Assembly: GCF_003762835.1 (NCBI RefSeq)
Contig: NZ_RJWA01000016.1
Location: 1-40,350, forward strand
Length of the DNA: 40,350 nucleotides
Reading direction: 5' to 3'
Source: Micromonospora sp. HM5-17
GTDB lineage: Bacteria > Actinomycetota > Actinomycetes > Mycobacteriales > Micromonosporaceae
Below, piece after piece: positions 9,603-37,038 of the stretch (positions are counted from its first letter, which is position 1; every line of letters starts with the position of its first letter). Under the pieces are notes generated by a model. It searched no databases and was not told the DNA's origin. It saw only the letters and a list, made by a program, of their open reading frames with translations. Made by a program: the position numbers and the translations under genes.

Positions 9603-9664
9603 CGGAGCCCACCGGACAGCCCGGCCGGCGGCGCCGGGCCGGGTTCGGCGAGCGCGATCGCCGA

Positions 9665-25600: not shown

Positions 25601-25700
25601 GGTTTCCGCTTCCGATGAGTTGTGACGTGGCAGGGAAGACCCTGGTGTCAAGGGCATACGGCTTCCCGACGGTCCCGGGGATGGTGACGCCGGCACGCTC

Positions 25701-26037
25701 GGTGTCCCGACCCTGGATCGGTCTCACCTCGTCCCGGGAGCCGACATGGTCAACAAGATAGGGCAGCTGATCGGGGTCCGGGGACCCCGGCCGACGCGCC
25801 CCGGGCGCCGCCGGCCTGCGCCTCGACCTCCCATCGCACCGTCGATTCCACCGAGTCGTCCGGTGGATCCGGTGGCGAGTGGGCATGACGCCGACCGGGT
25901 AGTGGACCCTGGGCCGAGGCGTCAGGGCCGCCTGCTCGGTGCGCCGGGCAACCCGGTCGGGGCTGAGTACGACGGTGCCGGGCCTCTCCTGGTCGGCGGC
26001 TGACGTCCGGGCACGGAGGTCGGCGTGGAATCGCGCG
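25701..26037 (-). pseudogene. Decayed duplicate of the SDR gene 3' region
   Basis: Positions 25701-25884 match 26275-26458 and 25885-26033 match 26594-26742 at roughly 90 percent identity; about 135 bp carrying the SDR C-terminus is missing between them. The minus-strand translation still reads ARFHADLRAR...RPGT then LTPRPRVHYPVGVM, as in the intact SDR. At about 26038 similarity to the SDR gene stops and the sequence becomes the upstream region of the KASIII-like gene, as if everything between had been deleted. It appears non-functional. Confidence 0.8.
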
Positions 26038-26244
26038 TCAGCGGACACGCACCCGCCAGCGTCGTCCACGTCATCCCGTCTCCCCCCAAGACTTCGCTTC
26101 GCCGCAGTGGCACGGGCGTACGGCAACCGCAGAGACGATGCCAGACGAGTGCACACCATCTGCACATTTATTGCGCGAATGGCGATGGGCGCCGCAATGT
26201 CCGCGCCCTCGACGTCGTGTGTTCGCCCCGGGACCAGGGGCAGC
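26038..26244. repeat. Direct repeat copy A of the cluster-upstream region
   Basis: This segment is a diverged copy of 35548-35748 in the same orientation. Shared anchors include CAGCGGACACGCACCCGCCA, CCAAGACTTCGCTTCG, GGCGATGGGCGCCGCA and CCCCGGGACCAGGGGCAG. The minus strand keeps the ribosome site and the first codons of the leader peptide found at the other copy (ATG at 26074). A further shared piece (26255-26273) matches the 3' end of modC (35902-35919). The stretch 26245-26499 holds only these repeats and the non-coding part of the SDR flank. Confidence 0.85.
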
Positions 26245-26499
26245 GAACGTGACTGCCGTCCCTGTCGGTCAGTCGGTATCCCGACCCAGGATCGGTCTCA
26301 CCTCGTCCTGGGAGCCGACATCGTCAACAAGATAGGGCAGCTGATCGAGGTCCGGGACCCCGGCCGACGCGCCCTGGGCGCCGCCGCCCTGTGCCTCGCC
26401 CTCCCATCGCGCCGTCGAGGCCACCCGAGTCGTCCTGTGGAGCCGGTGGCGAGTGGGCCTGCCTCATGGCCGGGTTCCCCCTCGTGGATGGTGGACGGG

Positions 26500-27348
26500 T
26501 CAGGACGGTCGGGGTGTCAGGAACATCCGCCGCACCATCGCGTCGACGACCGCGTCCGGGAGCAGGCGTCGGGTGGCGATGACGAAGCGGCACATGACGC
26601 CGACCGGGTAGTGGACCCTGGGCCGAGGTGTCAGGGCCGCCTTCTCGATGCACCGGGCAACCCGGTCGGGGCTGAGCACGAAGGTGCCGGGCCTGTCCTG
26701 GTAGGCGGCTGACATCCGGGCACGGAGGTCGGCGTGGAATCGGGCGTACGGCCCCGAATCGCTGCCGGCCGGGATCGTGGTGTTGGCCTTGTCGGAGAAC
26801 GGCGTGGCGATCGGGCCGGGCTCGACGGCGGTGACCGTGATCCCGAAGGGGCGCAACTCCATGCGCAGGGCGTCGGTGACGGCCCGTACGGCGTGCTTCG
26901 ACGCGTGCAGCGCTCCGGTTCCGGGCAGGACGAAGTACGCGCCCATCGCCGAGACGTTGACCACGCGTCCCCGGCCCCGCGCGCGCATGCCCGGCAGCAC
27001 GAGCTGGGTCAGTCGTACCAGCCCGAACAGGTTCGTCTCGAACTGGTGGCGAATGTGGTCGACCGACAGCGTCTCGATCGCGCCCTGGAGCCCGTAGGCG
27101 GCGTTGTTGATGAGAATTCCCACGGCGCCGTGGTCGTGCTCGACCCGCTTGACCGCCGCCATCATCGACTCCTCGTCGGTGACGTCCAACCCGAGGGTGA
27201 CGGCTCCGGCGGCGGCCAGGTCGGCGAGGGTGTCCGGATGTCGGGCCGTCGCGTACACCGGATAGCCGGCGCTCCGGAAGCGAAGCGCGGCGGCACGGCC
27301 CACCCCCGACGAGCAGCCGGTGATCAGCACAGCGGGTAGCGGCGACAT
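26500..27348 (-). CDS. Short-chain dehydrogenase/reductase lacking the catalytic Tyr
   Basis: A 282-residue classical SDR, last gene of the biosynthetic operon. The ATG at 27348 has GGGAG 9 bases upstream. The NAD(P) site is TGCSSGVG (10-17), with NNAAYG (81-86) and the Ser133 region NVSAMGA. The active-site segment reads GALHASKHAV: Lys151 is present but the position four residues before it, normally Tyr, is Leu147 (CTG codon). The rest of the fold, including PGPIATPFSD, looks intact, so this is not general decay. The protein may have lost redox activity, use another acid, or act as a binding or dehydratase-like partner. It is 38 bp downstream of the methyltransferase gene. A decayed copy of its 3' half lies at 25701-26037. 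Confidence 0.9.
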   Translation of the reverse strand: MSPLPAVLITGCSSGVGRAAALRFRSAGYPVYATARHPDTLADLAAAGAVTLGLDVTDEESMMAAVKRVEHDHGAVGILINNAAYGLQGAIETLSVDHIRHQFETNLFGLVRLTQLVLPGMRARGRGRVVNVSAMGAYFVLPGTGALHASKHAVRAVTDALRMELRPFGITVTAVEPGPIATPFSDKANTTIPAGSDSGPYARFHADLRARMSAAYQDRPGTFVLSPDRVARCIEKAALTPRPRVHYPVGVMCRFVIATRRLLPDAVVDAMVRRMFLTPRPS

Positions 27349-27386
27349 GAGATGTTCTCCCTCACTCGGTGCCAGGGCGGGCTGTT

Positions 27387-28022
27387 CTACCGCGACACTG
27401 GTTCGGCGAGGGCGGGGTCGGTGGCCGCCGGCGGCGCAGCTGCCGGCTCGATGTCGCGCGACCTGGTCAGTCGGGGTATGAACCGGCCGGTGCGCCGCAT
27501 GTACCGCTGGTAGTCCGGCCCGAATTCGGACGCGCTGAGGCGCCGCTCTTCGCCAGCGGCGGTAATGGTCAGCGCCGTGAACATGTAGCAGGTCAGGAAG
27601 AGCGTGCTCCAGTGCGGGAAGAACACCAGGGTCGACAGGTAGAGCAGGAGATAGGAGGAGTAGAAGGGGTGACGGATGTACCGGTACGCGCCATGGGTCA
27701 CGACGTGCTGCGGCACGTCGTCGTCCTGGTGGTACCGGGCCAGCGGGATGCGGTGGGTTCCCCAGGTGAGATACATCAACGCAATCGAGGCAACACCCAG
27801 CGTCACCGCCACCAGATCCCGCGCCGTGGTCCAGCTCGCCGGAGCCATCGGCGTCACGTCCGCCACGTAACCGGCGACCACCAGTAGTGGTCCGATGAAC
27901 AGCGGCAGACTGGTGAGCCACCAGCGCGCGGTGAACCGGCCGTCCCGGCGGAAGAACCAGATCGTCAGCAGGCCGATGGAACTGAAACCGAGCAGGATCA
28001 GCAGCAGGACTGCCGAATTCAT
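27387..28022 (-). CDS. ICMT-like membrane methyltransferase
   Basis: A 211-residue integral membrane protein with five hydrophobic segments. It matches the isoprenylcysteine carboxyl methyltransferase / phospholipid methyltransferase family: HVVTHGAYRYIRHPFYSSYLL (about 107-125) holds the R-H-P motif that binds S-adenosylmethionine, and GEERRL (157-162) followed by YQRYMRRTGRFIP is the typical second SAM-site region. Such enzymes methylate carboxylates or other groups on lipidic substrates at the membrane. In this cluster it may cap a carboxylate, hydroxyl or N-OH of the lipid-like product. The start overlaps the PPTase stop (ATGA, 28019-28022). The substrate is inferred only. Confidence 0.85.
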   Translation of the reverse strand: MNSAVLLLILLGFSSIGLLTIWFFRRDGRFTARWWLTSLPLFIGPLLVVAGYVADVTPMAPASWTTARDLVAVTLGVASIALMYLTWGTHRIPLARYHQDDDVPQHVVTHGAYRYIRHPFYSSYLLLYLSTLVFFPHWSTLFLTCYMFTALTITAAGEERRLSASEFGPDYQRYMRRTGRFIPRLTRSRDIEPAAAPPAATDPALAEPVSR

Positions 28023-28753
28023 GGCTGTCTCCCTTCGTACGCCGATGACCGGGCGGACGCATCCGAGGAGGCCACCAGGTCGGTGGCGAGGCGCTCCCGA
28101 ACCGGCAGCGGGCGGTCGGTGAGGACGGTGAGCGCGGCCCGGTAGCCGGCTGGCGGGGTGAGGTCGGTGATCGTGGCGGCGATCCGCGGGCGACCGGCGT
28201 AGGCCAGCAGGCGCGGCGGGGCGTCCGGGGGCGTGAGCGTGACCGCACGCAGCGCGGCGAGGCCGTCGCCGGTGGCCTTCACCACCGACTCCTTCCTCGT
28301 CCAGCAGCGGAAGAAGTCCTCGGTCGAGTGCACCCACCGGGCTTCGCGGTCAGGGCAGATGTAGCGCAGCATCCGTTGGTACTCGATGCTGGTCACCCGT
28401 TCGACGTCGATTCCCACCGGTCCGACCCGCGTCACCACGACGGCCGCCACCCGCGACGAGTGGGACACGGACACGTGCAGCCGGTAGCCGGGAATCCGTG
28501 GCTTGCCGTGCGGCTGCCCGCACTGACGACAGGCACGGTCGATCCGTACCTCGCGGGGCGTGGCGTCCAGGACCGCGGCGGCGGCGGTGCGCAGAAGGAC
28601 CACGCCAAGCACGAACCGGTCGCGGTCGTCGCCACGGCGGTAGCCGGCGTACCTCGCGCGCTCGGTTTCGTCGAGCAGATCGAGGTGGTGTGGTCGGAGC
28701 AGGTCGGTGCTGCCCCACCACACGTCGCAGCCGAACTCGGCGTGGGGCGTCAC
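28019..28753 (-). CDS. Sfp-type 4'-phosphopantetheinyl transferase
   Basis: A 244-residue enzyme that transfers phosphopantetheine from CoA to a carrier-protein Ser. Motifs are in order: HVSVSHS (93-99), GIDVE (114-118, Mg-binding Asp and Glu), and FFRCWTRKESVVKATGDGL (about 147-165, the W-x3-KE-x3-K motif). The GTG start at 28753 overlaps the stop of the ligase gene (GTGA). Two free carrier proteins are encoded in the same operon and are its obvious substrates, so the operon carries its own activating enzyme. A C-terminal 20-residue tail is disordered. Confidence 0.93.
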   Translation of the reverse strand: MTPHAEFGCDVWWGSTDLLRPHHLDLLDETERARYAGYRRGDDRDRFVLGVVLLRTAAAAVLDATPREVRIDRACRQCGQPHGKPRIPGYRLHVSVSHSSRVAAVVVTRVGPVGIDVERVTSIEYQRMLRYICPDREARWVHSTEDFFRCWTRKESVVKATGDGLAALRAVTLTPPDAPPRLLAYAGRPRIAATITDLTPPAGYRAALTVLTDRPLPVRERLATDLVASSDASARSSAYEGRQP

Positions 28754-30441
28754 GTCGCCGTACCTGCCGGTGCGAGGTCGGGGTCGATGGTGACGTCGGT
28801 CAGCGAGCCGGCCCGCAGTTGTTGCCAGAGGAACCGGCGCCGCGGTTTGCCACTGGAGGTACGCGCGACGAGTCCTCGACGGCCCACGATGATGGTGATC
28901 TGCGGCTCCGGGCCGAGTTCCTCACGGAGGAGCCGACGCGCGCGCGGTACCCAGTCCAGATCTTTGGCCTCGGCGAACAGCGCGACCCCCTGTCCGCCGC
29001 TGTGGACCATGCTGACCGCGGCGACGCCGCTCTTGGGGAGGCCCGTCGCCTCCGCCACCCGGACGTCCAGGTCCTCCACGAAGACGTTCCGGCCACGCAG
29101 TTTCAGGCTGTCGCCCATCCGACCAAGGACGTACAGCTCACCGTCGTGAACGAAGCCCGCATCGCCGGTGCGGAGCTCGCGGCCCACAAACCGGGTCGAC
29201 CCCTCGTGGTCGGCGCCGCGGTAGCCGGCGGCGACGGACGGGCTGCTCACCGCGATCTCGCCGACATGACCAACCGGGAGCGGTTCCCCGGCGTCGTCGA
29301 GGATCCGGATGTGCACGCCCTCGCTCTCCGGCGGGTATCCGTGGCCGACGAGCCAGCCGGTTTCCTCCAGCGGTACGTCGCCCAGCCGGCCGGCGCCCAG
29401 AACCGGGGCCGGGGCGCCGAACGACAGGCCGCTCCAGTCCACCCGCGTCATCCGAGGTGCCTCATCGTGCGCGGCGAAGGAGACCGCGAGGGTGTGTTCG
29501 GCGAGGCCGTAGGCGGGGGTGAACCCCCGCGGCGTGAATCCGGCCGGCTCGGCGTGGCGCGCGAACCGGTCCAGCACGGTGGCGTCCACCATCTCGGCGC
29601 CGACCACGGTCGACCGCATGCCGGAGAGGTCCAGGGTCGCCAGGCGGGCCTGCGGCACCCGGCGGACCGCATACTCGAAGGCAAAGGAGGAGGCCGCGGA
29701 GAGGGTGGCCTGCCCGGGCGCGAACAGTGCCAGCCACCGGGCCGGGTCGCGGATGAACTGATCCGGCCGCATCAGCCACAGGTTGGTCTGCCGTGCCACG
29801 GACGCGAGGAGGCAGCCGATGAGGCCCATGTCGTGATGCAGCGGGAGCCAGGACGCGCATCCGTCGTGGTCGCTCCACTCGACCCGTCGCTGGATGAACC
29901 CGAGGTTGGCGTCGATGTTGGACCAGGTGACCCGTACGGCGCGGGGCACGCCGGTCGAGCCGGAGGTGAACTGGAGCAGCGCGGTCGTGCCGGGCGGCTG
30001 GAGGGTGCCCGGTTCCTCGGCCGGGCGGGGGGTCCACAGCACGTCCGGCAGCCCCGCCTCGACGGCCGCGCGCCGGACCGGGCCGGCCAGCTCCGGGCTG
30101 GTGACCACCACCACCGGTGCGGCCTGACGCAGGATCGCGGCGGTATGCGCCGTGTACTGCGCCTCCGGCTGGAACGGCGTGGGTGGCGGCAGGATCGACA
30201 CGGTGGCTCCGCACGCCCACGCCCCGAAGAGGACCGCAAGGCAAGTGTGACTAGCGGGTATCCCGACGCACACGACGTCGTCGGCGGTCACGCCGCGGGC
30301 CCGTAGTGCGGCGGCGATCCGCAGGGCGGACGAGGCGAGCTGCGAGTAGCTGGTGTACCGCCAGCCACCATCCGGCCCGTCGGCGAGATGAACCCCCCGA
30401 CCGTCGATGGGGTCGGTGAGCCAATCCGTGATCAACGGCAT
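28750..30441 (-). CDS. Fatty-acyl-AMP ligase (FAAL)-like adenylating enzyme
   Basis: A protein of 563 residues from the ATG at 30441 (an ATG two codons upstream at 30447 is possible, but GGGAG is better spaced for 30441). It is an ANL-superfamily adenylating enzyme of the FAAL branch: P-loop LQFTSGSTGVPRA, then the FAAL hallmark WLPLHHDMGLIG, YGLAEHTLAVSF, and GDSLKLRGRNVFVEDLD. FAALs make an acyl-AMP from a free fatty acid and load it onto a carrier protein. The C-terminal domain is complete (SGKPRRRFLW). The ACP with its DSM site is encoded 16 bp upstream and is the likely acceptor. It therefore provides the fatty half of the product. Chain length cannot be read from the sequence. Confidence 0.92.
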   Translation of the reverse strand: MPLITDWLTDPIDGRGVHLADGPDGGWRYTSYSQLASSALRIAAALRARGVTADDVVCVGIPASHTCLAVLFGAWACGATVSILPPPTPFQPEAQYTAHTAAILRQAAPVVVVTSPELAGPVRRAAVEAGLPDVLWTPRPAEEPGTLQPPGTTALLQFTSGSTGVPRAVRVTWSNIDANLGFIQRRVEWSDHDGCASWLPLHHDMGLIGCLLASVARQTNLWLMRPDQFIRDPARWLALFAPGQATLSAASSFAFEYAVRRVPQARLATLDLSGMRSTVVGAEMVDATVLDRFARHAEPAGFTPRGFTPAYGLAEHTLAVSFAAHDEAPRMTRVDWSGLSFGAPAPVLGAGRLGDVPLEETGWLVGHGYPPESEGVHIRILDDAGEPLPVGHVGEIAVSSPSVAAGYRGADHEGSTRFVGRELRTGDAGFVHDGELYVLGRMGDSLKLRGRNVFVEDLDVRVAEATGLPKSGVAAVSMVHSGGQGVALFAEAKDLDWVPRARRLLREELGPEPQITIIVGRRGLVARTSSGKPRRRFLWQQLRAGSLTDVTIDPDLAPAGTAT

Positions 30442-30456
30442 CGCCATGCTCCCGAG

Positions 30457-30687
30457 CTACTGCGACCGCAACGCCTCAACGAGTTCGCCGAGCGTGTTGA
30501 TCCGGCTGAGCTCGGCCTGCGACAGCATGACGTCAAACTCCTCCTGCAGGTCGACGACCATTTCGACGAGGAGCATGCTGTCCAAGGCCAGATCCCGGAT
30601 CGTGGTCTCGGGCGTCAGCTCGGCGACCCTGACCGGGACCGTCGCCCGGATGTGCTCGGCCACCTGCTCGAACGTGACTGCGGGCAC
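30457..30687 (-). CDS. Acyl carrier protein 1 (partner of the FAAL)
   Basis: A 76-residue free-standing carrier protein. The GTG at 30687 follows AGGAGG (30694-30699) at 6 bases; that site overlaps the stop of the ferritin-like gene, so translation is coupled. Helix II starts DLALDSMLLVEMVVDLQEEF, with Ser37 in the D-S-M motif as the phosphopantetheine site. Size and charge are normal for an ACP. It lies directly before the fatty-acyl-AMP ligase gene and probably accepts the fatty acyl group. Confidence 0.92.
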   Translation of the reverse strand: MPAVTFEQVAEHIRATVPVRVAELTPETTIRDLALDSMLLVEMVVDLQEEFDVMLSQAELSRINTLGELVEALRSQ

Positions 30688-30697
30688 GACGTACCTC

Positions 30698-31312
30698 CTA
30701 GTGGCTTTCCTGCTTCCCGGCGGCCAGGGCGGAGAACTCGATGTCGGCCGGCTCGTCCGCGCCGTCGGTGGGAAGCAGCGCGAACCGCTCGGCGTACTCG
30801 GCGAGGCCCTCGGCGTAGATGGCACGATCGGCCTCGGTGTATCGCTGGACCGTTCGCGCGACCTCTTCCTCGCCGTACTTGCCGGCCAGGCGCTGGAGTT
30901 CGTCCCGGACGTACTGCACGTGCCAGCGCTCGTCGAGCATGATCTTTTCGATGGTCGCCTTCACCACCGGGTTCAGGTTCGGAATGCGCAGATGCTGGCG
31001 GTAGTGACCGATGACCCGCTTCTCCAGCACGTTGGTGGCCGCCATCACCTCCATGACGTTGGCCGGCAGGCCGACCGCGTCCAGGTACTTGTCCTGGTAC
31101 GCGCGGTGGAGCTTGATCGGCCGGTGTCCCAGCTCCGTGATGCAGTCGGTCCAGAGCCGGGAGTGGTTGGCCTCGTCGGAAAAGTGGTGGGTAACGTCCT
31201 TCTGCAGCGGGCCGCGGATGAAGCGGGACACGTGCCCGAAGAACAGTGCGGCGCTGATCTCAGACGACCGGTAGAAGCTGAGCAGCCACAGGTCGTTCTC
31301 GCTCAGCGTCAT
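30698..31312 (-). CDS. Ferritin-like diiron protein
   Basis: A 204-residue four-helix protein with the ATG at 31312 (AGGAGG 4 bases upstream). It has two E-plus-ExxH sets that can bind two irons: Glu18 with SDEANH (Glu47, His50), and Glu97 (NVLEKR) with LDERWH (Glu128, His131). It resembles non-haem diiron oxygenases/oxidases of the ferritin-like superfamily, for example the tRNA-hydroxylase (MiaE) type and small diiron proteins in N-N or N-O bond-forming pathways, rather than iron-storage ferritin. It is coupled to the thioester-reductase gene by ATGA at 31309-31312. It is the second diiron enzyme of the cluster and is likely to oxidise a pathway intermediate. Substrate unknown. Confidence 0.82.
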   Translation of the reverse strand: MTLSENDLWLLSFYRSSEISAALFFGHVSRFIRGPLQKDVTHHFSDEANHSRLWTDCITELGHRPIKLHRAYQDKYLDAVGLPANVMEVMAATNVLEKRVIGHYRQHLRIPNLNPVVKATIEKIMLDERWHVQYVRDELQRLAGKYGEEEVARTVQRYTEADRAIYAEGLAEYAERFALLPTDGADEPADIEFSALAAGKQESH

Positions 31313-32409
31313 GGAGCCTCCTGCTGGGTCTTGCCCCACCTCGTCCGAACCAGGTGGGAGACGGTGGATGTGACCAACGGGATGGATTTCGGTGCGGCAC
31401 AGCCCGGCCACGCGGAGCGGAGCGCGTCGGTCTGGAACGTCTTGGGCCGGTAGAGCTGCCCACCGAATGGCGCGACCGTGCCGAGGACGTCGCTGAGCAC
31501 CGCCTGTCGCATGCTGCGGGCGGCCGAGGTGAGTCGGTCGAACGCGGGTTCATCGCAGTAGATGGGGCGAAGAATCCGGCGCCGCCGAAACCAGTCGTCG
31601 CTCTCGAAGACGGCGAACGCGGCGTCGATGACGGCACCGAGCGCGGGTGTGTCGTCCGGATCGGCGCAGACGTGGAAGACCCCGCGGGGTGCCCGGTCGT
31701 CGAGCAGGTGCGCCACAGCGTCGGAGACGAACGCCGCAGTGGTGACGCTCAGTGGCGTCGCCGGGTTACCGGGGACCAGGCCCAACAGGCCGTAGAAGAA
31801 CAGCCTGAGGGTGTGGTGGAAGGCGTTGTACTGGGTCACCCGCCCGCTGTCGTCGTCGGCGATGACCGTCGGCAGCCGGAGCACCGACACCGGTAGGTGG
31901 GCGTACTCGCCGAAGACCCGCTCCTCGGCCGCCCACTTGGACCACTCGTAGTGGTTGACGAAGCCGCGGTCGTCCAGCCGGTGTTCGGCGACCGGGCCTT
32001 CGTGCCGGCCGGAGACGTACAGCGTGGAGAGCACCAGGTACCGGTCGAGGTTTACGCAGGTGGCGGCGAAGTCGCAGACGGCGGCGGTACCCTCCAGGTT
32101 CACCTGCCGCGCGCTGTCCCGATCGACGTTGAACCGGGTGATCGCCGCGGTGTGCACGATCCGGCGTACGGTCGCGGGGTCGACGTCGACGAACGGCTTC
32201 GGCTGTCGCAGGTCGGCCGCGACGACCCTGATCCGGCCCGGCGCTGCGTCGAACGCGGTGGCCGCCCACTCCCGCTTGGTGGCGAGCTCCGTGTCGTCGG
32301 CGGCGCGGACGGCGAGCACCAGCGGATCGTCGGTGCGGGCGAGCAGGGTCGACACCACCCGACGACCGAGATAGCCATCCGCGCCGGTGACCATCGTCGC
32401 GCCGGTCAC
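31309..32409 (-). CDS. Thioester-reductase-like extended SDR
   Basis: A 366-residue NAD(P)-dependent protein with a GTG start at 32409 overlapping the upstream stop (GTGA). The nucleotide-binding start is VTGADGYLGRRV. Further motifs are RIVHTAAITRFNV, VNLEGTAAVCDFA and LSTLYVSG, with the catalytic pair Tyr154 and Lys158 in NHYEWSKWAAEE. This arrangement is that of the thioester-reductase / fatty-acyl-CoA reductase branch of extended SDRs, which release carrier-bound acyl thioesters as aldehydes or alcohols. As a free-standing enzyme in an operon with two carrier proteins it is the best candidate for chain release. A plain epimerase-type role is the alternative. Confidence 0.85.
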   Translation of the reverse strand: MTGATMVTGADGYLGRRVVSTLLARTDDPLVLAVRAADDTELATKREWAATAFDAAPGRIRVVAADLRQPKPFVDVDPATVRRIVHTAAITRFNVDRDSARQVNLEGTAAVCDFAATCVNLDRYLVLSTLYVSGRHEGPVAEHRLDDRGFVNHYEWSKWAAEERVFGEYAHLPVSVLRLPTVIADDDSGRVTQYNAFHHTLRLFFYGLLGLVPGNPATPLSVTTAAFVSDAVAHLLDDRAPRGVFHVCADPDDTPALGAVIDAAFAVFESDDWFRRRRILRPIYCDEPAFDRLTSAARSMRQAVLSDVLGTVAPFGGQLYRPKTFQTDALRSAWPGCAAPKSIPLVTSTVSHLVRTRWGKTQQEAP

Positions 32410-33407
32410 TCCGACCTCCCCGCGCCGGACGCGGCGACGGTCGGCCGGACCACGGACGCCTCCGCCACGACGGTCCGCGAGGCGGCCACCAGATCTGGCC
32501 AGTCGGCGGGATCGGAGCCGTGCTGGTCGGTGATGGCAAACAGCCACCGTTCGAGCCCGAAGGCCAGGCAGCCGCTGTACGCCGGCTTTCCGTCGCGCGA
32601 CAGGTCGAAGCGCTCACCGAAGTGGTCGTGGTGCAGGTTCACCGACGCGATGGCCAACCCTGCACCGTAGGTCGCCTCGTGCTTCACGGGCTGGACGAGT
32701 TGCATCAGGTACTTCGGGTTGCGCATCGGCTGGAAGAATGGATCGGTGGCCTGCTGCCACGCGATCGGTAGGTCAACAAGTCGGGTAAACCGGTTGACCA
32801 CCCACCGCGCCCGGTCCAGGAACTCACCGACCTCGGCCCGGGTACCGATGCAGACCACCTCGCGCATCGTGAAGCTCCACTGCCGCCGCAACGGCCGGTA
32901 CGACTCCTCGTGACGGAAGCAGGTGTTTCGGGTGGTCAGGTAGCGGGGCCGGGTCAGCCGCTCACCCTCGTGATGCTGGTAGAGGTGGTAGCACGCGGCG
33001 GGGGTGAGCACCGCGGAGATGGGCGCCAGTCGGGTGGGGGCGACGTGCCCGGCGTCGTCCACGACCGGTCCGTTGAGAAAGTCCTCGACGTTGGCCTCGC
33101 TGCTGTCGAGCGTCACCGGGAACGTAGCCTGGTGGGGAAACGAGCGAAGATAGTCCAGTCGCGCGATGCACTCGGCGGACAGGAAGGCCGGATGGCTTTC
33201 GTCCTCGGCATGCCACACGTCAGCCAGGCGGCGGAACGCCTGGTCGCACTCCTCGGCCAGCTTCCACAGCGGGCCGAAGAGGCTTGCCTGCCCGTGTGTC
33301 GCGTGCCAGCGCAAACCGATCTGGGCCAGCCGGCATGGCACCCCGGGCCCCTCGGCCGACGTGTCGTCTGTGGTCACCCCGTCGGTGCGCGTCTCGGCCG
33401 TACTCAC
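32406..33407 (-). CDS. Amino acid:[carrier protein] ligase-like protein (class II aaRS homolog)
   Basis: A 333-residue homolog of the catalytic core of class II seryl-tRNA synthetases without a tRNA-binding arm. The GTG at 33407 has GGAG 8 bases upstream. Motif 2 is RNTCFRHEESY (160-170, Arg160 and Arg165), running into WSFTMREVVCIGT. Motif 3 is SGCLAFGLERW (Arg288). Cys139 (TPAACYH), Glu183 (MREVV) and Cys280 (SGCLAF) fall where atypical SerRS enzymes and amino acid:[carrier protein] ligases hold their zinc, which contacts the substrate amino group. Such ligases adenylate a small amino acid and load it on a carrier protein. The next gene upstream encodes an 86-residue carrier-like protein, overlapping by 4 bp. 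The amino acid (Gly, Ala, Ser or another) is not known. Confidence 0.85.
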   Translation of the reverse strand: MSTAETRTDGVTTDDTSAEGPGVPCRLAQIGLRWHATHGQASLFGPLWKLAEECDQAFRRLADVWHAEDESHPAFLSAECIARLDYLRSFPHQATFPVTLDSSEANVEDFLNGPVVDDAGHVAPTRLAPISAVLTPAACYHLYQHHEGERLTRPRYLTTRNTCFRHEESYRPLRRQWSFTMREVVCIGTRAEVGEFLDRARWVVNRFTRLVDLPIAWQQATDPFFQPMRNPKYLMQLVQPVKHEATYGAGLAIASVNLHHDHFGERFDLSRDGKPAYSGCLAFGLERWLFAITDQHGSDPADWPDLVAASRTVVAEASVVRPTVAASGAGRSE

Positions 33408-33664
33408 GGGGCCGACTCCGGTACGCAGACGAACCGGACCATCGCGTCCAGGCTTCCGAAGTTGTCGAGGTTCAGGTGCTCCACCTCGATCGGCGCACCG
33501 CGAAGCCGCTCGAGCAGCAGCAGGAGTTCGGGTAGGTGTACCGATCGCAGGTAGCGCTGCTCGAACAACGCCGTCGAATCGGCCAGTTGCTCGGGATCCA
33601 GCCCGCTCGCCTTTTTCAGCACCCAGTCCCGCAAAACCGCCCGGGTCTCGGCCTCAGTACGCAT
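33404..33664 (-). CDS. Carrier protein 2 (probable aminoacyl carrier)
   Basis: An 86-residue acidic helical protein. The region FEQRYLRSVHLPELLLLLERLRG has Ser41 at the start of helix II, where aminoacyl carrier proteins paired with SerRS-like ligases carry the phosphopantetheine arm. The usual Asp before Ser is Arg here (RSV), which is odd for an ACP. It overlaps the ligase gene downstream by 4 bp (GTGA) and the AurF-like gene upstream by 11 bp, a tight arrangement implying equal amounts of all three proteins. It is the likely site where the amino acid is held during N-oxidation. The carrier call rests on size, helix pattern and neighbours. Confidence 0.8.
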   Translation of the reverse strand: MRTEAETRAVLRDWVLKKASGLDPEQLADSTALFEQRYLRSVHLPELLLLLERLRGAPIEVEHLNLDNFGSLDAMVRFVCVPESAP

Positions 33665-34562
33665 CGTGTGGCTCCTCGCTCAGGATCCCGGTGGAGATAA
33701 GAAACTTGACGCATCCAGCAGACACCCGGCGCCGCAGGTCACGCTGGTACGGTGTCGTCCAGGCGGTCTCCGCGAGCTCCCAGGGTTCGGGCAGATTCAC
33801 CTCGGCGTAGACGTCCGGGTTGTAGAACTCCCGCCAGGTCATGACGAAAAACTGGCTGAGGTAGTCACGCACGTCGTCGACCTGCTCGGCGGTCAGCTCG
33901 GCTGTGCACACCTCCCAGAGCACGGCGAGCAGCCGGCGCCCGAAGACCAGGTGCCGCGCCTCCTCGTAGTGATGGTTGTGGTTGATGAACCGCGCCACCG
34001 GGTGAAGGCGTCCATCGCGCGCCTGCACCCGGTTGTAGTAGTCGACGATTTCCTCGAAGATCAGCGTCTTTGCGAAGAACAGCAGGTCCTCGACGTGCTG
34101 CGGACGTGTCTCCGTACCGGCGATCTGGCGGCTGCGGTAGATGCGCGCATACTTCCGGCAGAACTGACCAAAGTAGATGCTGTGCTTGTTTTCCTCGTCG
34201 AGGAAGTGGTGCAGGTAGTCGGCGACGCCCAGGAGGTCCGGCCGGTAGAGCCGAGCCGCGAGTCCACGCATCAGGCTCTTTTCGCCGTGGATGTTCAGGC
34301 TGTAGAAGTTGGCCGCCTCCTGGAATGCCAGCCGCCGCCGAGCCGGCTCGTCCAGCTCGTCCCACATCCGCGTTCCGTACAGGCTGACATACTCCGGGCT
34401 GCTGAACCACTCCTCGTCCGGCCGCACCGTCTCCGGCCACTCCGACAGGGCGGTGTACGGGTTTTGGTACGAGCGCCGCGACAGGTGGCTCAGTCTGGCC
34501 ACCGTGTCGTCGATGGATGCCAGCGCTGTGCTGAGCGCACTCCCGGCTGCTGCCTTTGTCAT
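33654..34562 (-). CDS. AurF-like diiron N-oxygenase
   Basis: A 302-residue protein with the ATG at 34562 (GGAGG 7 bases upstream), overlapping the stop of the KASIII-like gene (ATGA). It matches the p-aminobenzoate N-oxygenase AurF family. Candidate iron ligands are Glu82 (FQEAANFY), Glu124 and His127 (LDEENKHS), Glu170 (LIFEEIVDYY), and His197, Glu201 and His204 (HHYEEARH). The spacing 170-197-201-204 equals the Glu196-His223-Glu227-His230 pattern of AurF. Members oxidise amines to hydroxylamine, nitroso or nitro groups, and some act on carrier-bound amino acids. Being sandwiched between KASIII-like and carrier-protein genes suggests on-carrier amine oxidation. All expected ligands are present. 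Substrate inferred. Confidence 0.88.
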   Translation of the reverse strand: MTKAAAGSALSTALASIDDTVARLSHLSRRSYQNPYTALSEWPETVRPDEEWFSSPEYVSLYGTRMWDELDEPARRRLAFQEAANFYSLNIHGEKSLMRGLAARLYRPDLLGVADYLHHFLDEENKHSIYFGQFCRKYARIYRSRQIAGTETRPQHVEDLLFFAKTLIFEEIVDYYNRVQARDGRLHPVARFINHNHHYEEARHLVFGRRLLAVLWEVCTAELTAEQVDDVRDYLSQFFVMTWREFYNPDVYAEVNLPEPWELAETAWTTPYQRDLRRRVSAGCVKFLISTGILSEEPHDAY

Positions 34563-35530
34563 GACACCGCCTCCGTGGCCTGCAGAATCGCGCACTGCCA
34601 GTTGAGCCCGTGTCCGGCCGCCACCAGGGCCAACCGGTGGCCGGGACGCAACCGGCCCGAGTCCACCAACGCCTGAAGATTGATGATCGTGTCGGCGGAG
34701 ACCACGTGGCCTGCCCGGGCGACCGACGGCAACCAGACCCGGGACTCCGGCACCCCCAGCAGCCGCGCGAACACCTCCCACGCCGCCGGGTTGGCGTTCT
34801 GCGCGACCACCCAGTCCAGGTCCCCAGCCGTGAGTCCCGCCTTTTCCAAGGCCTCCACGACCACCCGGTGGGTATAGGTGAAGAAAGCCCCAACGATCTC
34901 GTCGGCACCGGCAAGGCCGAGACCACCGTTGGTGATCTGGTGACCGGCGATGATGCGGAACGCGGCCGGCTGTCGGCTCACCACGCACGCCGCGGCGCCG
35001 TCGGAGATCAGGTTGTACGCCTGTTCGTACATCGCGCCGTCGGGCAGACGGTCCGCGGTCACGCACAGCACCCGCCGCCAGTCCGACTCGATCGCCAACA
35101 GGGCACGGGCCAGGTGCAGCGATCCGAGCAGACCCGTACACGCCTGCTGGTTGAGACCGACGACAACCGCACCGTCGAGGTCGAAGTCCACCTGCAGCCG
35201 GCTGCCCGGAAAGTCCATCAGGTGCGCGATGTCGCGGGTACGACGCGCGGTGTCCAGGTCACCGACGGTGCCGTTCGTCGGCAGCGCCGTCGCGTAGATG
35301 ATCGCGTCCACGTCGCGCAGCCCGCCGGCCGCCGCGATCCGGGCGGTCGCCGCCCGTGCGAGGTCATAGGCGGAGGTCGTCGGATTGCAGACGTGGTGCA
35401 CGGCGAACCCGGCCTCGGCAAGGTCCCGCGGCTCCGACCGCAGCCTGCCGTTTGCCGCCGACGTGGCCAGATCGATCCGTCGCTCCCCCAACGCATACGC
35501 CAGACAGCCGACGAACGCGTTCCCGCTCAA
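34559..35530 (-). CDS. KASIII-like condensing enzyme with altered active site
   Basis: A 323-residue thiolase-fold protein. The TTG at 35530 gives MSGNAFVGCLAYALGE, the correct first strand for a FabH-type enzyme, and overlaps the stop of the leader peptide (TTGA). A GTG at 35557 in the same frame is the alternative start. The nucleophile is Cys131 in NQQACTGLLG. The FabH His-Gln-Ala-Asn box reads QNAN (Gln244 for His) and the Asn box RHGNTSA reads RAGHVVSA (His275 for Asn). The Cys-His-Asn triad is thus Cys-Gln-His. Decarboxylating condensation would normally need the His/Asn pair, so this may instead transfer acyl groups to an amine or alcohol, or use a non-malonyl partner. It is the first structural gene of the operon. 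Confidence 0.9.
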   Translation of the reverse strand: MSGNAFVGCLAYALGERRIDLATSAANGRLRSEPRDLAEAGFAVHHVCNPTTSAYDLARAATARIAAAGGLRDVDAIIYATALPTNGTVGDLDTARRTRDIAHLMDFPGSRLQVDFDLDGAVVVGLNQQACTGLLGSLHLARALLAIESDWRRVLCVTADRLPDGAMYEQAYNLISDGAAACVVSRQPAAFRIIAGHQITNGGLGLAGADEIVGAFFTYTHRVVVEALEKAGLTAGDLDWVVAQNANPAAWEVFARLLGVPESRVWLPSVARAGHVVSADTIINLQALVDSGRLRPGHRLALVAAGHGLNWQCAILQATEAVS

Positions 35531-35580
35531 CGGCGACCGTCCCCAACCAGCGGACACGCACCCGCCAACATCGTCGTCAC
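35527..35580 (-). CDS. 17-residue leader peptide, translationally coupled to the KASIII-like gene
   Basis: GTG at 35580, 5 bases after a strong GGGGGAG ribosome site, opens a 17-codon frame (VTTMLAGACPLVGDGRR). Its TGA (35527-35529) shares bases with the TTG start of the KASIII-like gene. The diverged copy at 26038-26244 keeps the ribosome site, an ATG start at 26074 and the codons for LAGACPL, with a length change of exactly three bases, so the frame has been maintained. It may serve to start translation for the weak TTG codon, or as an attenuation leader. An N-terminal frameshift of the main gene is the alternative reading. Confidence 0.5.
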   Translation of the reverse strand: MTTMLAGACPLVGDGRR

Positions 35581-35748
35581 CTCGTCTCCCCCAAGACTTC
35601 GCTTCGCTGCATTGGCACGGGCGTACTGCAACCGCAGAGACGGTGCCAGGCCGGCGCACACCCTCCGCACATCTCCCGCCCAAGTGGCGATGGGCGCCGC
35701 AGGGTCCGCGCCTCGACCTCGTGATCGCCCCGGGACCAGGGGCAGACC
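35548..35748. repeat. Direct repeat copy B, upstream region of the biosynthetic operon
   Basis: This is the intact counterpart of the repeat at 26038-26244. It contains the leader peptide start and presumably the operon promoter on the minus strand, though no convincing -35/-10 pair can be seen. The rest of the gap to modC (35749-35913) is unique non-coding sequence until 35896-35919, where a second block shared with 26249-26273 covers the modC stop. Confidence 0.8.
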
Positions 35749-35913
35749 GGATCGGTGCTGTCCCGACCGTCGGGCTCTCGGACTGGACGAGTACGTCCGA
35801 CGCCTGGTCAGTGGCTGTGGAGGAAAAGGGATCTGGTGGTCGGTTGGCCGGTGGCGCGTTGTGCCAGGCGGCAGCGGTCGTCGCGAGAAGGCGTTGATTG
35901 CCGTCCCTGTCGG

Positions 35914-37038
35914 TCAGTCCGTCCCGGCCGTTCGGGGGCTTCCCGCCGGGTAGACGCGGGTCTCGGTGGCCTTGACCGCGGCCCAGAGGGGTTGTCCCGG
36001 GGCGAGGTGCAGGTGGGCGGCGGCGGCCGGGGTGATGTCGGCAGCCACGTCGACGGGGCCGGCGAGTTGGATCCGCAGGTTGTCGCCGTGGCGTTGGATG
36101 CCGGTAATGGTCGCGGGCCAGACGTTGCGGGGGCTGCCGTCGGGGCGGAGCGGGTAGAGGGCGACGGCGGATGGTGGGAAGGCGACGAAGACGTCTCCGT
36201 CGTGGCGGTCGGCGATGGTGAGGACGAAGTCGGCACCGATGCGTACGGTGTGGCCGTCGGCCCAACCGCGGTGCAGGTTGAGCCCGACGAGCCGGGCGAC
36301 GTAGTCGGTGCGGGGTTGCGCGGTGATGGTGCCGGCGTCGCCCTCCTGCACGATCCGACCGTGCTCGACGATGACGAGCCGGTCGGCGAGGACGAGGGCG
36401 TCGAGCGGGTCGTGGGTGACCAGCAGGGTCGCGCCGGGATGTTCGGCGAGGTGGCGTTGCAGTTGGGCGCGGGTGTCGAGGCGGGTACGGGCGTCGAGGG
36501 CGGCGAGCGGTTCGTCGAGCAGCAGCAGTGCCGGGTCGACGGCGAGGGCGCGGGCCAGCGCGACCCGTTGGGCCTGCCCGCCGGAGAGCTGCCGTGGCTT
36601 GTGGCGGCCGTAGTCGGCCAGCTCCATCCGGTCGAGCCATTCCGCGGCGCGCTGGCGGGCCTGTCGCCGGTCCAGTCCGCGCCGGCGGGGGCCGAACGCG
36701 ACGTTGTCCAGGGCGCTCAGGTGGGGAAAGAGCCGGTAGTCCTGGAAGACGACGCCGATCGGGCGTCGCTCGGTGGGTGTCCACCGCCGGGCAGCGGGGC
36801 GGTCGAGGTCCTGACCGGCGAGGGTGATGTGCCCGGCCGACAGCGGTAGCAGGCCGGCGAGGGTACGCACCGCGGTGGTCTTGCCGGCGCCGTTCGGACC
36901 GAGAAGTGCGACGACCTCGCCCGCATTGATCCGCAGTGCCACGTCGAGCCGGAAGCTGTCGCGTACGACGACGAGGTGCGCGTCGAGCATCGGCGTACCG
37001 GTGTCGGGTTCGGCTCTGGTGACGGTGAGGGCGGTCAT
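35914..37038 (-). CDS. modC: Molybdate ABC transporter ATP-binding protein
   Basis: A 374-residue ATPase energising molybdate import. The ATG at 37038 overlaps the permease stop (ATGA). Walker A is GPNGAGKTT, then the Q-loop FQDYRLFPHLSALDNVAFG (a ModC-type pattern), signature LSGGQAQRVALARAL, Walker B LLLLDEPLAALD and the H-loop VTHDPLDAL. A C-terminal TOBE/MOP-type domain (about 295-365, NVWPATITGIQRHGDNLRIQL) is the oxyanion-sensing module. The genes run modA-modB-modC on the minus strand. Its last bases are part of a repeat also found at 26249-26273, so the duplication that made the flanking repeats extended into this gene. Confidence 0.95.
   Translation of the reverse strand: MTALTVTRAEPDTGTPMLDAHLVVVRDSFRLDVALRINAGEVVALLGPNGAGKTTAVRTLAGLLPLSAGHITLAGQDLDRPAARRWTPTERRPIGVVFQDYRLFPHLSALDNVAFGPRRRGLDRRQARQRAAEWLDRMELADYGRHKPRQLSGGQAQRVALARALAVDPALLLLDEPLAALDARTRLDTRAQLQRHLAEHPGATLLVTHDPLDALVLADRLVIVEHGRIVQEGDAGTITAQPRTDYVARLVGLNLHRGWADGHTVRIGADFVLTIADRHDGDVFVAFPPSAVALYPLRPDGSPRNVWPATITGIQRHGDNLRIQLAGPVDVAADITPAAAAHLHLAPGQPLWAAVKATETRVYPAGSPRTAGTD

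Follow-up and report, generated by a model that had tools for sequence, protein, structure and literature searches.

A compact Micromonospora operon that may make a lipidated, N-oxygenated amino acid on free carrier proteins

What might be assembled by an operon that encodes two free carrier proteins and ligases to load them, with no NRPS or PKS? Within the 40,350-nucleotide stretch of the Micromonospora sp. HM5-17 genome analysed here (hereafter the window), eleven minus-strand genes run from 35530 to 26500, and ORF reading, Pfam/NCBIfam matches, and, for CP2, conservation and a structure model place each in the family that an initial annotation had given it. Likewise as annotated, neither NRPS nor PKS genes were found in the operon or among ten other large ORFs scanned (some mutually overlapping), in a window that holds 70 ORFs of at least 200 aa. 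Chance ORFs are ruled out, since orthologous operons occur in named actinobacteria at ~45-70% protein identity. The sequence itself shows the enzyme families, the conserved residues and carrier serines, co-inheritance, and two replacement patterns; from these we infer all substrates, the product, and the order in which the steps occur. Our preferred reading, held with about even confidence, is of an NRPS-free, dissociated pathway to a small amino acid that would be lipidated, N-oxygenated, and O-alkylated.

Operon architecture and the five-gene core

Overlap at "nearly every junction," as first described, is slightly generous wording: 7/10 junctions overlap and 3/10 are gaps. Overlaps of 4 nt join the KASIII-like/AurF-like, CP2/aaRS-like, SDR1/ferritin-like, FAAL/PPTase, and PPTase/ICMT genes, and one of 11 nt joins AurF-like to CP2; the aaRS-like/SDR1 junction is a 4-nt overlap if SDR1 starts at GTG 32409 and a gap if it starts at ATG 32394. 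Gaps separate ferritin-like from ACP1 (10 nt), ACP1 from FAAL (9 nt), and ICMT from SDR2 (38 nt). The KASIII-like gene most likely starts at TTG 35530. All coordinates given below refer to the minus strand.

The KASIII-like, AurF-like, CP2, class II aaRS-like ligase, and SDR1 genes form a core. KASIII adjoins AurF in 57/80 named relatives (the best 80 of 299 found); one locus begins at AurF (L083), such that the presence of KASIII cannot be judged there, and three (L061, L064, L070) are short contigs. With the window added, the resulting 58 core loci cover nine phyla, as assigned by record title. Both this distribution and the alternation of methyltransferase and BtaA-like genes described below are new relative to the initial annotation. 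One locus (L071) has no SDR1 match, and relatives of SDR2 at 59-63% identity lie beside the operon in four (L048, L067, L069, L076). An MmpL-like exporter adjoins 12/58 core loci (two of the 12 being distant), which would fit a lipid product.

AurF and aaRS-like ligase genes are also adjacent in five Streptomyces loci (L117, L119-L122), together with methionine-synthase-like genes in 5/5 and with SAH-hydrolase-like and methyltransferase-like genes in 4/5, as named by inspection. Viral contigs scanned with AurF peptide patterns gave no match, and plasmid records held no KASIII homologue at E 1e-40; relatives of the aaRS-like ligase were present on 94 plasmid records, all at <60% identity.

Proposed amino acid loading and N-oxygenation on CP2

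Two free carrier proteins had been claimed, and both are borne out. ACP1 (30457..30687; 76 aa) matches Pfam PP-binding (E 5e-12) and has Ser37 in 26/26 aligned sequences (26 of 31). CP2 (33404..33664; 86 aa) has no Pfam or NCBIfam match at E 0.01; its presumed attachment site, Ser41, is invariant in 45/45 aligned homologues (45 of 57 sequences). The AlphaFold2 model of CP2 (mean pLDDT 85.8) displays carrier-like helices, with Ser41 opening the second long helix. In Foldseek it best matches carrier proteins or domains (E-values 0.004 and weaker, TM ~0.7), including the carriers in Bradyrhizobium japonicum glycine:[carrier protein] ligase complexes 4h2x, 4h2u, and 4h2w. This predicted structure is better evidence for a carrier than the comparison of CP2 and ACP1 profiles, which is weak (probability 2%, E 0.02).

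The class II aaRS-like amino acid:[carrier protein] ligase (32406..33407; 333 aa) is homologous to the solved Bradyrhizobium protein Bll0957 (PDB 3mey and others; E 2e-28), with which it shares the class II core, the Cys/Glu/Cys set (Cys139, Glu183, and Cys280, kept in 60/60 aligned out of 61 sequences), and, as predicted here, a small carrier partner. Unlike Bll0957, it lies in a putative N-oxygenation operon and scores below the NCBIfam equivalog cut-off (142 bits against 357 for PRK07080), making it a relative and not that equivalog. A stand-alone A domain is encoded in 4/4 uncut core loci without this ligase (L082, L096, L099, L100) and in 0/51 core loci with it (BLAST E 1e-30, two queries, locus DNA examined); this replacement suggests an amino acid as the cargo of CP2. 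Two of the four A domains (L096 and L099) score above the TIGR01733 cut-off, their next matches being DltA models under cut-off, while those of L082 (39%) and L100 (68%) were recognised by BLAST to L099 and not by the model. Outside the core, one locus has both the ligase and the A domain (L094), and another pairs an A domain with a distant aaRS-like match (L103). The specificity codes of the four core A domains, read by eye against the general code positions and uncalibrated, appear small and DltA-like.

The Cys/Glu/Cys set would serve in Zn binding. Solved relatives of the ligase hold the alpha-amine at their Zn site, and loading should therefore begin with a free amino acid. The ligase would thus adenylate a small amino acid, for which glycine is our best guess, and load it onto CP2.

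The AurF-like ferritin-type diiron protein (33654..34562; 302 aa; Pfam AurF E 1e-33) contains E82, E124, H127, E170, H197, E201, and H204, which are invariant in six sequences and at least 93% conserved in 81 (in the 81-sequence alignment, numbering is window residue +5). A search of solved structures with the AurF alignment gave no match at 1e-3. The last six of these ligands are spaced as in the Dob3 set, per the relevant passage of PMC12154687, with the first glutamate 6 residues further. An extra histidine is presented there as characteristic of N-oxygenases; its counterpart here is H197, invariant in the six sequences. The Pfam match and this N-oxygenase ligand set support the N-oxygenase chemistry assigned initially, by which the enzyme would oxidise the CP2-bound amine to the N-hydroxyl, oxime, or nitro/nitronate level.

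Lipid-side genes, reductases, and alternating putative alkyl transferases

The KASIII-like acyltransferase (34559..35530; 323 aa; Pfam ACP_syn_III and ACP_syn_III_C) has Cys131, Gln244, His275, and Asp280 in 58/58 core orthologues. FabH uses a Cys-His-Asn triad to decarboxylate malonyl-ACP; by alignment, the FabH Cys is kept here, whereas the FabH His is replaced by Gln and the FabH Asn by His, both fixed in 58/58. The resulting Cys-His-Asp pattern is common to ChlB3 (7eqi). KASIII-type acyltransferases with this triad, such as CerJ and ChlB3, move acyl groups to heteroatoms. With Cys-His-Asp kept and the FabH His/Asn pair lost, the acyl chain should therefore go to a nucleophile other than malonyl. 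This reading leans on CerJ and DpsC as precedents, and DpsC, itself a condensing enzyme, is a point against it.

The fatty acyl-AMP ligase-like protein (FAAL; 28750..30447; 565 aa; Pfam AMP-binding) is matched best, among solved structures, by 3pbk, whose title is fatty acyl-adenylate ligase. FadD32, FadD23, and FadD28 are among its 18 solved matches, of which other titles include acyl-CoA synthase and polyketide synthase; in NCBIfam, PRK07768 (CoA ligase, 284 bits) and PRK09192 (fatty acyl-AMP ligase, 278 bits) both score under their cut-offs. A window-type FAAL was detected in 27/58 core loci; among the others, some have a different AMP-binding ligase (cluster c6) and some have none in the locus DNA. 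An amino acid loader for CP2 and a FAAL-like protein beside ACP1 are both supported; that each carrier always has its own ligase is too strong, given the 27/58 count.

Next to ACP1, the ferritin-like diiron protein (30698..31312; 204 aa) has six Glu/His residues (E18, E47, H50, E97, E128, H131) that are invariant in all 40 aligned sequences (of 43). Its AlphaFold2 model (pLDDT 86.9) gave weak fold matches, with aldehyde deformylating oxygenase first (E 3e-3), as well as PaaC, bacterioferritin, and SznF; these are too weak for a reaction to be assigned from them.

SDR1 (31309..32409; 366 aa), a thioester-reductase-like extended SDR (Pfam NAD_binding_4 E 3e-29), scores 87 bits against the thioester reductase model TIGR01746, under the cut-off of 213; its Y154 and K158 (alignment positions 159 and 163; Tyr-x3-Lys) are at least 93% conserved in 55 sequences. 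SDR2 (26500..27348; 282 aa) is a classical short-chain dehydrogenase (Pfam adh_short E 2e-43). An Sfp-type 4'-phosphopantetheinyl transferase (PPTase; 28019..28753; 244 aa; Pfam ACPS E 1e-12) was detected in 29/58 loci by regular-expression search, a count that is probably low, as it was also present in the gaps of 6/6 loci read by eye; it would activate both CP2 and ACP1.

The ICMT/PEMT-type membrane methyltransferase (27387..28022; 211 aa; Pfam PEMT and ICMT) alternates with a BtaA-like enzyme, which by family is SAM:aminocarboxypropyl transferase-like. The 58 core loci, window included, comprise 36 with ICMT, 17 with BtaA-like, none with both, and five with neither (one of these, L066, is BtaA on the tree, as its BtaA-like match runs into the contig end). 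GNAT is encoded in 16/17 BtaA loci, and none of the 58 core loci has GNAT without BtaA. On a quick tree of the core (30/58 rows flagged for odd letter composition; L087 and L101 filling under half of the columns), ICMT and BtaA-like genes switch at least three times; the exclusion is clustered on the tree, hence independent events are few (three). Changes in the ferritin-like gene were counted on this tree with L061, L064, L070, L087, and L101 set aside. Mutual exclusion with at least three switches suggests two ways to alkylate one group. The known acceptor of BtaA is an alcohol. In ten BtaA-type loci, ferritin-like, ACP1, and FAAL genes were not detectable in the locus DNA, save for a partial 34% FAAL-like match at the edge of one; at 1e-5, a ferritin-like homologue was likewise missing from two whole genomes of this kind. 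For these ten loci, we are therefore less sure of the acyl donor and even of the lipid part.

Proposed pathway, precedents, and alternatives

Our proposal for the later steps runs as follows. FAAL would load a fatty acid onto ACP1, where the ferritin-like enzyme would probably oxidise the chain. KASIII would then take the acyl group from ACP1 (where a locus has no ACP1, a different acyl-ACP or an acyl-CoA would be the donor) and acylate the CP2-bound unit at its N-O group or acidified alpha-carbon. SDR1 would reduce the CP2 thioester, releasing the product, and SDR2 would adjust a carbonyl. Methylation of the N-O oxygen by ICMT would take place in the membrane; lineages with the BtaA-like enzyme would instead add 3-amino-3-carboxypropyl at that oxygen, with GNAT acylating the new amine. 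The initial annotation had outlined an N-oxidised amino acid joined to a fatty chain, released reductively and methylated; the amino acid loader, FAAL-like protein, and N-oxygenase family speak for this outline, with its reductive release weakened by the sub-cut-off score of SDR1. In a more specific version, which we judge unlikely, AurF would form nitroacetyl-CP2 from glycine and its carbanion would replace malonyl for the decarboxylation-defective KASIII; the chain would gain a nitro-bearing two-carbon unit, and the nitronate or oxime oxygen would be capped by methyl (ICMT) or SAM-derived 3-amino-3-carboxypropyl (BtaA-like), yielding a new lipid class. We know of no N-O precedent for the latter cap.

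None of the literature matches listed describes a pathway with these genes, consistent with the earlier remark that the combination was unfamiliar. The type of reaction is not as foreign as it then seemed, because enteromycin, althiomycin, and fragin/valdiazen provide precedents; by analogy, the operon would follow, in dissociated form, the logic of the enteromycin, althiomycin, and fragin pathways, in which an AurF-type enzyme oxidises an amino acid bound to a carrier. The nitronate pathways of enteromycin and akazaoxime were reportedly described by He and Ryan in 2021. In the sections of PMC9967187 that treat akazaoxime, althiomycin, and enteromycin, the enzyme that acts on carrier-bound glycine is of the AurF type, and a nitronate is O-methylated. 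Carrier-bound glycine, AurF-type diiron oxidation, and subsequent SAM-dependent O-methylation (PMC9967187, PMC12154687, PMC11035981, in their relevant parts) would thus be shared with our operon, for which the glycine and the methyl target are predicted. In contrast, for enteromycin and akazaoxime these sections mention neither a KASIII nor a FAAL/ACP pair or a ferritin-like partner; the methyl group is added in those pathways by a nitronate O-methyltransferase, as opposed to the membrane ICMT-type enzyme here and the BtaA-like one in other lineages. Akazaoxime is also described as using NRPS/PKS modules, which our operon is without, and althiomycin, though alike in having a diiron oxygenase on carrier-bound glycine for oxime formation, is described as a hybrid NRPS/PKS product (PMC9967187).

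A possible, if doubtful, alternative is that AurF only N-hydroxylates and KASIII N-acylates the hydroxylamine, to give an N-acyl-N-hydroxy (hydroxamate) lipid that ICMT would O-methylate and whose carboxyl end SDR1 would convert to an alcohol or aldehyde; the product would be a (capped) metal chelator like lipothrenin. Heteroatom acyl transfer by Cys-His-Asp KASIII-type enzymes is in keeping with this. So is the lipothrenin (lit) cluster, which in the portions of PMC10616846 bearing on it joins a FAAL, a stand-alone ACP, a KASIII, a further, presumably diiron protein (LitE, ribonucleotide-reductase-like), and an AurF-like N-oxygenase (LitN), and yields an iron-binding N-hydroxy threonine-fatty acid amide; a fatty acid-amino acid with an N-O bond is also what we propose here. 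However, according to the same portions, deletion of litB (KASIII) altered the fatty acid made and not the amide step, and LitN is placed after amide formation by the authors. Table 5 of that paper shows one annotated carrier and lacks the CP2-aaRS-SDR1 genes, ICMT, and BtaA, and O-methylation would spoil hydroxamate chelation. Very unlikely, in our estimation, is a route in which SDR1 frees an N-hydroxy amino aldehyde that cyclises or dimerises (pyrazine N-oxides) or forms a diazeniumdiolate, with the lipid genes as decoration. Such a route would resemble ham/pvf (fragin, valdiazen), where, in the passages of PMC11659414 concerned, AurF-type HamC acts on valine tethered to HamD, which has a reductase domain; loader, carrier, reductase, and AurF here would be the HamD/HamC set in pieces. 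HamD is described there as a single NRPS-like protein with all three functions, whereas these occupy three genes in our operon, with an aaRS-type loader and additional KASIII and lipid genes. Moreover, the operon's Pfam matches include no cupin or haem-oxygenase-like partner, and the route leaves no role for the KASIII that adjoins AurF in most of the best 80 relatives.

We give an equally small chance to the AurF-like protein oxidising a C-H of the CP2-bound amino acid or of the acyl chain, with ICMT/BtaA alkylating a plain hydroxyl or carboxyl. The alcohol acceptor of BtaA would suit this. Ferritin-like diiron oxygenases also carry out C-H oxygenation and desaturation in addition to N-H oxidation (PMC12154687, in the part on their reactions). 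Against it, the extra histidine of N-oxygenases has its invariant counterpart in H197, the cargo of CP2 would be an amino acid, and nitrogen is the atom oxidised by the described relatives that work on carrier-bound amino acids. Two further systems were set aside: the nocuolin A cluster, with FAALs and distantly AurF-like proteins, has PKS/NRPS genes and an aminotransferase, its available description making no mention of the core; the DOBA diazo pathway has another loader and hydrazine chemistry.

On our preferred reading of a dissociated, NRPS-free pathway, a compact gene set in loci assigned to nine phyla appears to N-oxidise on a free carrier without an assembly line. If true, this would constitute a portable amino-acid-to-N-O module coupled to a KASIII with an unusual nucleophile, along with a natural experiment, the substitution of methyl transfer by aminocarboxypropyl transfer and vice versa. 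As the carriers and ligases are separate, small to mid-sized proteins, the early steps are each accessible to intact-protein mass spectrometry.

Upstream region and probable repeat scar

The region upstream of the operon (35548..35922) contains short leader ORF(s) and a presumed promoter, and has a degenerate repeat at 26039-26277. The leader ORF, with its ATG at 35672, has an open frame, and many amino acids differ between the two copies by eye. As a conserved part of the operon, the leader peptide did not hold up: a counterpart short ORF (two or more cysteines, with its end close to the start of KASIII) was found in 3/23 actinobacterial relatives, all dissimilar by eye. With the copies diverging as well, a Cys-rich attenuator leader was rejected; no Rfam family reached its gathering score in the window. 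A second copy of the operon probably once existed and left a scar at 25699..26277, in which the degenerate upstream region is fused to duplicated sequence covering the 3' part of SDR2 and the stretch beyond, with direct repeats at offsets of 9502-9509 (one at 9645), 709, and 573-574.

The operon and its distribution

The eleven-gene minus-strand operon described in the initial annotation is real. It runs from 35530 to 26500 and encodes the expected families, in the order KASIII-like enzyme, AurF-like protein, stand-alone carrier 2 (CP2), class II aaRS-like ligase, thioester-reductase-like SDR1, ferritin-like diiron protein, acyl carrier protein ACP1, fatty acyl-AMP ligase-like protein (FAAL), PPTase, ICMT-type membrane methyltransferase, and the classical short-chain dehydrogenase SDR2. 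Overlap at nearly every junction had been reported; this holds for seven of the ten junctions but not for the other three. The operon would constitute a dissociated, lipid-linked new variant of carrier-bound amino-acid N-oxygenation, with loci assigned to nine phyla. In line with the earlier remark that the gene combination was not recognised from a described pathway, no paper recognisable as describing this gene set was found among the open-access matches listed, some of which came from searches aimed at single precedents.

An AurF match at 1e-10 was absent from each of six same-genus genomes, and one of at least 60% identity occurred in four of 101 genomes, counting the window's own (6.17 Mb). 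GTDB genomes scanned with an alignment of six AurF relatives gave 299 relatives, the best 80 of which were kept; a KASIII orthologue adjoins AurF in 57 of these, i.e., 58 core loci with the window. Genes were called by BLAST with window or relative proteins as queries (at least 60% of the query covered, with divergent genes undercounted), in locus DNA stopping at the contig end or at 10 kb. Core genes were thereby found for AurF in 58 loci, CP2 in 52, the aaRS-like ligase in 51, and SDR1 in 54. The fatty module was sparser (ferritin-like 42, ACP1 36, FAAL 27), as were ICMT (36), a BtaA-like protein (17), GNAT (16), MmpL (12), and SDR2-like proteins (7). Record titles, many of them from metagenome bins such that individual assignments are soft, place the loci in Actinomycetota, Pseudomonadota, Acidobacteriota, Melainabacteria, Omnitrophota, Myxococcota, Nitrospirota, Bdellovibrionota, and Fidelibacterota. 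Most loci retain the order KASIII-AurF-CP2-aaRS-SDR1, but not L061 and L064 (KASIII, SDR1, and FAAL on the opposite strand), L071 (aaRS on the opposite strand, no SDR1 match), or the loci without the aaRS.

Past a gap of ~380 nt on the 5' side, minus-strand ORFs resemble a molybdate-type ABC transporter, and 3' of the operon small ORFs have a WXG100/YbaB look (translations read by eye). Repeats offset by ~9.5 kb relate 25699-26461 to 35548-35922, and the end of SDR2 is likewise duplicated together with what lies beyond it; these repeats are best explained by an old tandem duplication of the entire operon, with the second copy having lost its middle. Elsewhere in the window are carbohydrate-degradation genes, encoding a GH11 glycosyl hydrolase (1158-2315) and a 1955-aa multidomain protein (3658-9522, plus strand) with ThuA, GSDH, PKD, CBM6, and other domains.

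Proposed carrier loading and nitrogen oxidation

CP2 has no Pfam match, yet its Ser41 is invariant and its model is carrier-like. The aaRS call is absent from seven of the 58 loci. Three of these (L087, L101, L109) are truncated by contig ends, and L101 still shows an aaRS match; each of the four uncut loci (L082, L096, L099, L100) instead encodes a stand-alone adenylation domain, found in none of the 51 loci with the ligase (within locus DNA). Those of L096 and L099 pass TIGR01733 (amino-acid adenylation), with DltA models next best, below cut-off. Since two unrelated amino-acid loaders replace each other beside the same carrier, this is good evidence that CP2 would hold an amino acid, although four loci are few and three are closely related on the tree. 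As for the proposal that each carrier has its own ligase, an amino-acid loader for CP2 is supported; as a general rule the proposal is too strong, FAAL being detected in fewer than half of the core loci.

Outside the KASIII set, an adenylation domain occurs in 11 AurF loci (L097, L102, L103, L105-L108, L112, L114, L115, L118), which may be another offshoot of this chemistry. These often have a CP2-like carrier, seven have a GNAT/FemAB-like protein, and none has a KASIII match. Both loader types are present in L094 and L103; in the former (Polyangium, L094:10001-18182), AurF and the aaRS-like ligase adjoin a large protein reading as a FAAL-ACP-C-A NRPS.

The AurF-like protein keeps its diiron ligands, six of seven spaced as in an N-oxygenase described in PMC12154687. 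Comparable steps are proposed in two other papers: AurF-type HamC acting on HamD-tethered valine (PMC11659414), and an AurF-type enzyme acting on carrier-bound glycine in akazaoxime, with althiomycin and enteromycin cited likewise (PMC9967187).

AurF also adjoins an aaRS-like ligase in five Streptomyces loci (L117, L119-L122). From reading of translations, all five encode a methionine-synthase-like protein, four (L117, L119, L120, L122) SAH-hydrolase-like and methyltransferase-like proteins, both loci read further a SAM synthetase, and L120 an AcpS-type protein. This methionine/SAM-cycle set would suit O-methylation following N-oxidation, and the loci are perhaps enteromycin-like or other O-methylated N-oxidised amino-acid clusters. 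A 2021 Nature Chemistry paper reportedly deals with glycine-derived nitronates.

A second AurF-CP-aaRS cassette follows a similar ~340-aa protein (no Pfam match for the L041 copy) in L041:5933-8934 and L042:12080-17300; the L042 cassette is followed by an apparent PPTase and an apparent FAD halogenase-like protein.

Proposed acyl transfer, fatty module, and alternative caps

Cys131, Gln244, Asn245, His275, and Asp280 are fixed in all 58 KASIII orthologues. Aligned to FabH sequences, Gln replaces the decarboxylation His and His replaces Asn, while the Cys/His/Asp set is that of ChlB3; this argues that malonyl extension would be disfavoured and acyl transfer to another nucleophile (nitrogen, oxygen, or carbon) favoured.

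Among solved structures, the FAAL-like protein best matches a fatty acyl-adenylate ligase; its top NCBIfam label, by a few bits and below cut-off, is CoA ligase. Six ligand residues of the ferritin-like protein are invariant across 40 sequences, and all 36 ACP1 calls fall in loci encoding this protein. Neither protein was found in ten BtaA-type actinobacterial loci (within locus DNA), and a search of two of the corresponding genomes for a ferritin-like homologue found none at 1e-5. On gene content, the fatty module is thus an accessory of the five-gene core; in those BtaA-type strains the acyl donor must come from elsewhere.

Within locus DNA, 36 core loci have ICMT only, 17 a BtaA-like protein only, none both, and five neither (Fisher p 1.3e-10, kinship ignored). 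A quick concatenated-core tree, in which 30 of the 58 sequences were flagged for unusual composition, requires at least three ICMT/BtaA changes, all forced by strongly supported branches; the kinship-corrected support for exclusion is therefore three switches, not 53 points. The one BtaA-like protein tested matches DUF3419 (187 bits), and BtaA is known to move the 3-amino-3-carboxypropyl group of SAM onto an oxygen. On the simplest interpretation, both enzyme types would alkylate one same oxygen, and the N-O oxygen is the one that the core would create. GNAT is encoded in 16 of the 17 BtaA-like loci and in no other core locus, and could acylate the amine left by the BtaA-like transfer.
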